A stretch of DNA of 64,000 nt from Beroe forskalii (Eukaryota; Ctenophora; Nuda; Beroida; Beroidae). Below, one piece after another: positions 29,709 through 38,303 of the stretch. The position numbers were made by a program, and so were the translations under genes. A model generated the notes under the pieces. It saw only the letters and a program-made list of their open reading frames with translations. It had not been told where the DNA came from and did no database searches. Every line of letters begins with the position of its first letter. Position 1 is the stretch's first letter. The stretch spans positions 1-64,000 of the forward strand of contig WFMF01000067.1 of assembly GCA_011033025.1 (NCBI GenBank). The letters are read 5' to 3'.

Positions 29709-32700
29709 ATGACAGGACGCGCTCGAGGCCGCGCAGGACGCGGCGCTCCACCCGCTGCCGCGGCAGCGACACCCCCCGCCGGAGGCACGCCCGCAGCTCC
29801 CGCACAACCCGCTCCCGCAGCTGCTGCAGTCCCGAGAGGGAGGGGACGATCCAGAGGTGAGTGGTATGAGGGGAGGGGACGATCCAGAGGTGAGTTGTAT
29901 GAGAGGAAGGGGACGATCCAGAGGTGAGTGGTATGAGAGGAAGGGGGCGATCCAGAGGTGAGTGGTATGAGGGGACGATCCAGAGGTGAGTTGTATGAGA
30001 GGGAGGGGACGATCCAGAGGTGAGTGGTATGAGAGGAAGGGGACGATCCAGAGGTGAGTGTTATGAGAGGGAGGGGACGATCCAGAGGTGAGTGTTATGA
30101 GAGGAAGGGGACGATCCAGAGGTGAGTGGTATGAGAGGGAGGGGGCGATCCAGAGGTGAGTGGCATGAGAGGGAGGGGACGATCCAGAGGTGAGTGGCAT
30201 GAGGGGAAGGGGACGATCCAGAGGTGAGTGTTATGAGAGGGAGGGAAGATCCAGAGGTGAGTGGTATGAGAGGGAGGGGACGATCCAGAGGTGAGTGGTA
30301 TGAAAGGGTGGAGACGATCCAGAGGTGAGTGGTATGAGAGGGAGGGGACGATCCAGAGGTGAGTGGTATGAGGGGGAGGGGACGATCCAGAGGTGAGTGG
30401 TATGAAAGAAGGGAATGATCCAGAGGTGAGTGCTATGAGAGGGAGGGGTACGATCCAGAGGTGAGTGGTATGAAAGTGAAATCCAATGATATCGTGAGGG
30501 GGTTTATTGTAGACATCTCTTGTTTCTCCTTTTGTAATCGAAGTGTCTCTGTAACAGGCTCCTGATATGACCTGCTACAACACCCCTAAACCGCATTCCT
30601 TGTCAGGTATGCCTGCAGCAGCGGAGGCTCCCCCAGCAGAGCAGATGGCTGCAATGAACATCAACGTGCAGGCTGCAGGAGCCCAGGCAGTCAATGGGGC
30701 TGCTGGCGGGATGCCAGAAAGAGGAGTGAGGGAGAGGGGATACAGACAAGCGGTAAGTTGATGAGATGACAGGGGCTGGAATTAGGGTGGTAGGGGTAGT
30801 GGGTAGCGCAGCAGACCAAATGCAACTGTTAACATTATCTTTCAGATTCTGACACTTCACTCTTTCAGAGCCTTGTCTTGAGACCAGACAACCTGGAAAC
30901 TTCTAGAGGAGGATCAGGACAGCCGGTCCCCCTCATGACCAACTACTTCCCACTCACTGTCCAGGACAAGCAACCCTTCTACCAGTACCAAGCCACCTTC
31001 ACTCCACCGGTCAGTTTGGGGTGCCAAAACGTCTTGATGACGCTCCTTTTCATTTTGTAGATACATAAGATATGGGAGATGTCATGATTCGTGTCTCCAA
31101 AAAGTCGAGAAAATAGTTATTATCTGATGAACTCGGATGAATTTTAATTTTTGTCCGTTTCACGACAAAAAGAGAGCACCAACGTCATATCCTGTAATTC
31201 CTCACTATACTATATCAAATAAAGTATAAACCCGTGTAATTGTTGTAACCGTTCCACTCCTTCACATTGATTACTTTACTGAAAACCTTACAATCTTAAC
31301 CCCCTACTCAGCTTGATAACGTGAAACTGCGTAAAGCGATGATCCACAATATAGACGTGCTGAAAGGGAAGCACATCTTTGATGGCAACCTTCTCTACAC
31401 ACCGCTACGTCTGGAACAACTGGAGTTCACCACCAAGACACGCCGTGACGAGGTCATCAGGATCGGACTGGTGCTGACGCAGGAAGTGGCACAGGGATCC
31501 GATCAGTTCATACAAGTTGCCAACATCATCATGAACGAGTGAGTAGTTACAAACATCATCCAAATGATTGAGTAGGTGCAAACATCATCATGAATGATTG
31601 AGTAGGTGCCAACATCATCAAGAACAAGTGAGTAGGTGCAAACATCATCATGAACGAGTGAGTAGGTGCAAACATCATCATGAACGAGTGAGTAGGTGCA
31701 AACATCATCATGAACGAGTGAGTAGGTGCAAACATCATCATGAACGAGTGAGTAGTTGCAAACATCATCATGAACGAGTGAGTAGGTGCAAACATCATCA
31801 TGAACGAGTGAGTAGGTGCAAACATCATCATGAACGAGTGAGTAGGTGCAAACATCATCCCGATGATTGAGTAGGTGCAAACATCATCCAAGTGATTGAT
31901 TGAGCAGGTGCAAACATCATCATGAACGAGTCCATTATAAAACTAGGGGTAGTTTTAGATGCCGGGGAAATTTATTTGTTACACTATTATTGAATCCATC
32001 TGTCAACAGGATTGCTAGCCGTCACATGGGCTTGGAGCGGATCAAGAGAGACTTCTACAACAGATCGAAGTCAATCCAGATTCCCCAACACAAGTGAGTG
32101 ACAAAAATTCCTCATCAGAATACAGATAGAATTATGATCGTAATACCAGATTTTTATCTTCCTGATTTTGGCTAATACCAGGATACCTGTGCTAACGCCC
32201 GTATACAACTCATTCGATCATTGATCCCCTTCTCATTTGATCATTTATCCCCTTCTAATTTCATCATTGATCACCTCCTAACCCCTCTCTCAGTTGATAA
32301 CCTCCTCACCCTCTCAGGATCGAGCTGTTCCCGGGATACGAGTTCACGGTCAGGAAGTACACCAATGGCGTCCTCCTGGGACTGGACATCAAGCACAAAG
32401 TCCTCCGAACTGACTCAGCTCTGGAGTTCATGAACTCCATCATGCAGGTAGGGCTTCATCACTTCAATCTCCCGAATAAATTCCTTGCATTGTGTCGATA
32501 TTAACTACTAATCTCCACTTGAGATCCAAACGGACACTACGGCGCCGGATCTCCCCCTACTGGTGTTCCCAGTTACCAGGGCTACTGTGGATGGGAACAA
32601 GTCCCGGTATCAAATATTTGTCTATTTCAATCCTGCCACAACTCTTACCAAGATACTCTTCATTTTGTAGCGGTCTCGAGGAGGAAACTCGCAGTCTGAA

Positions 32701-38303: not shown

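Follow-up and report, generated by a model that had tools for sequence, protein, structure and literature searches.

The window analysed here is a stretch of 64,000 nucleotides from the ctenophore Beroe forskalii (contig WFMF01000067.1, positions 1 to 64,000). The assembly (216 Mb in 1134 contigs) includes a mitochondrial contig of 13,339 bases and 17.5% GC, in which ARAGORN, run with the bacterial code, detects no tRNA and COX1 contains 4 internal TGA codons. A paper on Beroe describes missing mitochondrial tRNAs as typical of ctenophores (PMC6991124). One glutamate receptor of the genome has its highest score (219.8 bits) with the 256-residue ligand-binding domain of ML032222a, a protein of Mnemiopsis, and 214 with full-length kainate receptors; a second one scores higher with kainate receptors (203) than with ML032222a (195). 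An amphioxus host was considered and rejected: a search for the GFP family gave no match, which is weak evidence because it gave none in the control genomes either. A full-length PIWI gene lies on its forward strand (29709-38303, +). The rebuilt gene model, based on the open frame and on homology, encodes 883 amino acids in 17 exons separated by 16 introns. Exons 1-6 are located at 29709-29856, 30607-30752, 30869-31009, 31312-31538, 32010-32093 and 32318-32447; exons 7-12 at 32671-32925, 33044-33106, 33275-33468, 33762-33966, 34167-34264 and 35169-35307; exons 13-17 at 36262-36473, 36839-36970, 37218-37304, 37581-37854 and 38187-38303, the last of which contains the stop codon. The best match among solved PIWI proteins is Piwi-like protein 1 (chain 9s0z, E 5.5e-193, aligned residues 2-883).

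The first-pass annotation of this DNA had counted 15 introns, the exon at 33762-33966 having been overlooked; its introns 10 and 11 are introns 11 and 12 of the 17-exon model, the numbering of which is used below. The 16-exon model lacking this exon was rejected, since exon 34167-34264 is then translated in the wrong frame. Intron 10 (33967-34166) starts with ATGAGT and ends with CAG. As the protein requires the junction CCT/ATG, this intron looks like a rare AT-AG intron, or another odd site is hidden by the ATG repeated at both borders.

Tandem Arrays in the PIWI Introns

Tandem arrays meet a splice junction in four introns of the gene. Tandem Repeats Finder (TRF) and the gene model place the first over the donor of intron 1 (29834-30473, +; 19.1 copies of a 34-bp unit, which includes 23 exon bases and the donor) and the second over the donor of intron 4 (31518-31931, +; 13.8 copies of a 30-bp unit with 21 exon bases and the donor). 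The exon 4 copy of the latter reads TGCCAAC where the array consensus is TGCAAAC, and one internal copy also has TGCCAAC. The third array covers the donor of intron 12 (35296-35823, +; 27.1 copies of a 20-bp unit with 12 exon bases and the donor), and its unit consists of the pyrimidine-rich TTACCTTCTCAG followed directly by GTAGAC. The earlier statement that the unit in these three introns equals the exon end plus the 5' splice site is confirmed by the TRF rows and the gene model. The fourth array adjoins the acceptor of intron 11 (34574-35174, +; 14.3 copies of a 46-bp unit). It had been described as the 3' splice site joined to the exon start; it does meet the acceptor with 14.3 copies, but the exon part is at most 6 bases. 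Of the four arrays, this one has the least claim to an exonic part; its top-scoring TRF row (117 bp, 34654-35095) stops short of the exon.

Three further arrays contain 0 exon bases according to TRF. One in intron 12 (36135-36224, +; 19-bp unit, 4.7 copies) ends 37 bp before the acceptor at 36262, and one in intron 14 (37071-37182, +; 31-bp unit, 3.6 copies) ends 35 bp before the acceptor at 37218, another TRF row extending to 37198. The first-pass annotation had placed weaker arrays against the acceptors of exons 12 and 14; they do lie near the acceptors at 36262 and 37218 but do not reach into the exons. The remaining array is found in intron 5 (32209-32276, +; 23-bp unit, 3 copies). The earlier figure of about 70 decoy sites is roughly right as a number of copies (19.1, 13.8, 27.1 and 14.3 in the four junction arrays). 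When the 9.2-kb PIWI gene region was resampled 20 times under a first-order Markov model, no array with a period of at least 12 attained a score of 100.

Other repeats of the window lie outside the gene. Upstream of PIWI, in a stretch without an assigned gene, a 17-bp unit containing the donor-like AACAAGGTACC is repeated 36 times (27250-27860). Two large arrays about 8 kb apart (47992-49347 and 57096-59155) have a common 37-bp unit in 36.8 and 55.6 copies. The right end of the window is occupied by a 314-bp tandem repeat in two blocks (60484-61649 and 62722-64000).

Splice Junctions and Decoy Sites

Homology of the PIWI protein was used to locate the junctions within the arrays. Both alignments shown run gaplessly across the exon 12/13 junction. 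Around the exon 11/12 junction (NSDR/AEEYIG) one of them leaves a single residue unmatched, and the exon 4/5 junction (IIMNE/IASRHM) has one extra residue relative to both homologues, three places past the junction. The exon 1/2 junction sits in low-complexity sequence, where the alignment is uninformative. Since no PIWI alignment shows the insertion of a repeat unit, the true splice sites at three of the four array junctions appear to lie in the exon-proximal copies.

The remaining copies include 58 decoys scoring at or above the true site minus 1 bit (18, 8, 25 and 7). One of the 18 strong decoys of intron 1 (29857-29927) keeps the reading frame; going by the open frame at 29709-29927, it is probably the second copy, and its use would leave the N-terminus of PIWI with two GRGRSRG-like motifs.

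The decoys could be in use as a splicing buffer, in alternative splicing, or in stepwise (recursive) splicing through the AG/GT units of intron 12. The 20-bp unit of that intron, in which a pyrimidine-rich stretch ending in AG is joined to GT, is suited to the last of these, and the frame-keeping decoy of exon 1 is compatible with such use. A simple pooled count over ten arrays also points this way: splice dinucleotides are mismatched in 9 of 356 positions against 404 of 5889 in other columns (p 0.0006). However, columns within units differ widely, and under column permutation the signal is lost (P 0.12, nine arrays); circular window shifts (ten arrays, one swapped) gave P 0.64, 0.049 and 0.44, so that it holds in only one of the three window widths. 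Moreover, 57 of the 58 strong decoys would break the reading frame. Use of the decoys is thus very unlikely. Stepwise splicing at AG/GT units leaves no trace in the mRNA and therefore cannot be judged from sequence.

Purifying selection on the decoys, hinted at by the pooled count, was accordingly not upheld, and we read the decoys as being free of robust constraint. The first-pass annotation had suggested that the cell tolerates or uses them; their maintenance finds no support in the permutation and window-shift tests.

Differences between Gene Copies

Gene copies elsewhere in the genome hold the same region with and without an array. Two chaperonin copies on contig C558 are 98% alike beside one intron, where a 37-bp donor-spanning unit (12 exon bases and the donor) is present in 2.9 copies in one gene and once in its sibling. 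In another intron of these genes the roles are reversed: a 31-bp array with 2 exon bases abuts the acceptor in the other copy only. The chaperonin genes of this contig (L014, L015, L028-L031) form an inverted, near-identical pair about 36-40 kb apart, which could be useful for dating intron changes. Two dynein paralogues (L121 and L122, contig C441) share an 86-bp unit, about 79 bases of which are exonic, in about 7 and 3 copies. The dynein loci were left out of the count given below because they were chosen after repeated matches were already visible.

The proposal that the PIWI introns had grown by duplicating their own splice boundary is therefore well founded, since the chaperonin copies display such an event directly and homology supports the exon-proximal junctions. 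Array origin inside introns, without the exon part, had been named as the finding that would speak against it. The exonic part within the duplicated unit of the 37-bp chaperonin array and of the dynein array argues against an intron-only origin, whereas the 31-bp chaperonin array did originate within its intron.

Copy numbers of arrays in genome assemblies are generally unreliable, and the assembler could have inflated or even invented the repeat copies. Such an artefact is extremely improbable here, given that the copies diverge from the consensus at 2-13% of positions and that the chaperonin and dynein gene copies hold different forms of the same region. The same type of structure has, in addition, been reported in amphioxus from independent data, according to the available part of that report (PMC3087553).

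Survey of Introns in Other Genes

The survey was built from matches to the Piwi, chaperonin, myosin, kinesin and SNF2 families in the contigs of the genome (300 matches kept; the 120 kinesin rows and the 40 SNF2 rows were each reduced by one). From 135 adjacent match pairs with contiguous profile positions, 130 introns were obtained, five pairs giving no confident intron. Introns were called with self-trained splice matrices, and the PIWI gene of the window was excluded. Near-identical gene pairs were kept separate and contribute 11 intron pairs (one 71-84% alike, the others at least 89%). An array was regarded as strong at a score of at least 100 and a period of at least 12, and as junction-spanning if it included at least 5 exon bases. 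The expected number was calculated by placing the ancestral unit uniformly over the collapsed intron.

Introns of the survey have a median length of 244 bp, and TRF detected 65 arrays of period at least 9 in or over 50 of the 130. Strong arrays number 20, of which 6 run across a splice junction where random placement predicts 4.2 (P 0.22). This result includes two manual corrections, one taking a unit of 148 as 34 and the other shifting an acceptor by 41 bases; without them, the expectation for the same 20 arrays was 4.5 and P was 0.28. Junction-spanning arrays are thus present in 6 of 130 introns (95% interval 1.7-9.8%). For 10 of the 20 strong arrays, collapsing the array to one unit brings its intron down to 105-252 bp. 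A 2-fold excess would be detected by the survey with a power of 0.69, and a 2.5-fold excess with a power of 0.93.

Besides PIWI introns 1, 4 and 12, arrays spanning donors are found in an Argonaute-family gene (C274) and in chaperonin (C558). Acceptors are spanned in kinesin (C897), myosin (C225 and C163) and SNF2 (C458) genes, besides PIWI intron 11. Copy numbers of the survey junction arrays range from 2.0 to 56.5. The occurrence of such arrays in a transposon-silencing gene, singled out earlier as noteworthy, looks incidental, as kinesin, myosin, SNF2, chaperonin, Argonaute-family and dynein genes carry them likewise. In a second sample, 4 of 40 regions were analysed (matches used: 46 of 50 UCH, 5 of 15 ABC, 76 of 86 dynein and 19 of 135 kinase). 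Two of these regions were chosen for repeated matches that were already visible; the two others, chosen among the shorter ones, contained no array of score 100.

A mechanism favouring duplication at exon-intron borders had been put forward in the first-pass annotation. Duplications could be started at junctions by R-loop repair, by AG/GT microhomology or by slippery, pyrimidine-rich acceptor tracts. In PIWI alone, a gene chosen for the pattern, junctions are crossed by 4 of 7 arrays, where 1.5 would be expected (P 0.033). With the survey arrays added, the count is 10 of 27 and the expectation 5.7 (P 0.033), a value that includes the same choice. Junction arrays are present in 4 of 16 PIWI introns and in 6 of 130 survey introns (Fisher p 0.014), PIWI again having been picked for the feature. 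Strong survey arrays also lean towards intron ends, with 14 of 20 in the outer 40% (P 0.010) and 9 of 20 in the last fifth, at the 3' end (P 0.010). This lean was noticed post hoc, and a Kolmogorov-Smirnov (KS) test of array position against a uniform distribution is not significant for the same 20 arrays (P 0.098). The survey, which was not selected for the feature, gives only the 6 of 20 against 4.2 mentioned above, and lower score cut-offs bring the counts to 6 of 56 against 7.0 expected (score at least 40) and 6 of 28 against 5.2. A border-biased mechanism is therefore unlikely, and none is needed to account for the survey count. The comparison with random placement, which had been suggested as a check, comes out near chance in the 130 introns. 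Arrays across junctions are thus no rarity in Beroe forskalii, and their number is almost accounted for by chance placement in short introns; a mild border preference is possible.

Proposed Origin of the Arrays

The PIWI arrays are very probably minisatellites of the mirage type described below for amphioxus, formed by near-neutral tandem duplication across exon-intron borders. A short segment (20-46 bp in PIWI, 86 bp in dynein) straddling a border by chance would be duplicated in tandem and could then expand by ordinary slippage or unequal exchange. In a donor-straddling duplication the exon and its first donor would stay put, and in an acceptor-straddling one the last acceptor and its exon would do so. 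Protein homology suggests that the exon-proximal site is the one chosen. As long as the copy next to the exon is the one spliced, the protein stays the same, and junction duplications would therefore be tolerated about as well as those internal to introns. Their origin, expansion and drift would then be no more restricted than those of intron-internal ones. With introns this short and units approaching them in length, random placement alone would put a good share of arrays across borders.

With the exon-side copy chosen, the boundary arrays look like a tolerated genomic stutter and not like a special device. It is doubtful, though conceivable, that splice borders are modest duplication hotspots and that the splicing machinery, faced with dozens of equivalent sites, dependably selects the one beside the exon. 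In that case the genome would represent a natural competition assay for exon-defined choice of splice sites, and the AG/GT array of intron 12 would perhaps be spliced stepwise.

Comparison with Known Systems

The first-pass annotation knew of no named system of this kind, yet such structures already bear a name, the 'mirages' of amphioxus (lancelets; PMC3087553, PMC3902484). In the available portions of these two reports, mirages are minisatellite-like tandem duplications that cross exon-intron borders; donors as well as acceptors are affected, and many of the duplications contain AG/GT decoys. They are described for Adh3 and for the globins BflGb6 and BflGb9 (PMC3087553), to which PGBD5 and troponin C were added (PMC3902484). 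Undisturbed splicing is suggested by the Adh3 data and by the globin paper's own RT-PCR (PMC3087553), and length or somatic instability is reported in the amphioxus work.

The PIWI arrays share the head-to-tail minisatellite copies within the intron (units of 20-46 bp, 13.8-27.1 copies), and the unit sizes fall within the 10-72 bp range given for amphioxus Adh3. As in mirages, the unit crosses the boundary, with 23, 21 and 12 exon bases at the PIWI donors, at most 6 at the acceptor, 12 in chaperonin and about 79 in dynein, and both 5' and 3' splice boundaries are affected in Beroe forskalii. Copy numbers in PIWI (13.8-27.1) exceed the 6 and 3 of two amphioxus BflGb6 haplotypes. The copy number of mirages varies between alleles or tissues, whereas in Beroe forskalii it is seen to differ between gene copies (chaperonin, dynein). 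Splicing of the amphioxus mirages was followed by RT-PCR; in PIWI, joining the exon-proximal copies yields a protein that aligns with a homologue over residues 2-883. On their sequence features the PIWI arrays are classed with mirages. In contrast to the amphioxus work, as far as the available portions go, the frequency is set here against a random-placement expectation.

Human segmental duplications contain internal tandem repeats of about 30 bp at exon-intron boundaries, and their copy number differs between recent paralogues (PMC2812944, in the part available). Border position, unit size and paralogue differences in copy number are like those of the arrays described here. The human repeats are described as giving rise to novel introns and alternative transcripts, while the present evidence favours the lengthening of existing introns with the old junction kept. 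Tandem duplication of segments bearing AG/GT is also shared with the introns derived from tandem arrays or tandem genomic duplication (Zhuo 2007; Gao and Lynch 2009; potato RdRp, PMC4974935); unlike the PIWI arrays, these cases, as presented in the available excerpts, concern intron gain.

No report of mirages in ctenophores was found among the titles and abstract openings of the literature on ctenophore tandem repeats, minisatellites and splice sites or introns. The PIWI arrays probably belong with mirages, in a phylum new to them. Should RNA show the exon-side copy to be the only one in use, the arrays would offer natural experiments on the choice that the spliceosome makes between identical sites. 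A lancelet phenomenon, with another form in human paralogues, is thereby extended to a ctenophore, in several genes and with a figure for its frequency.
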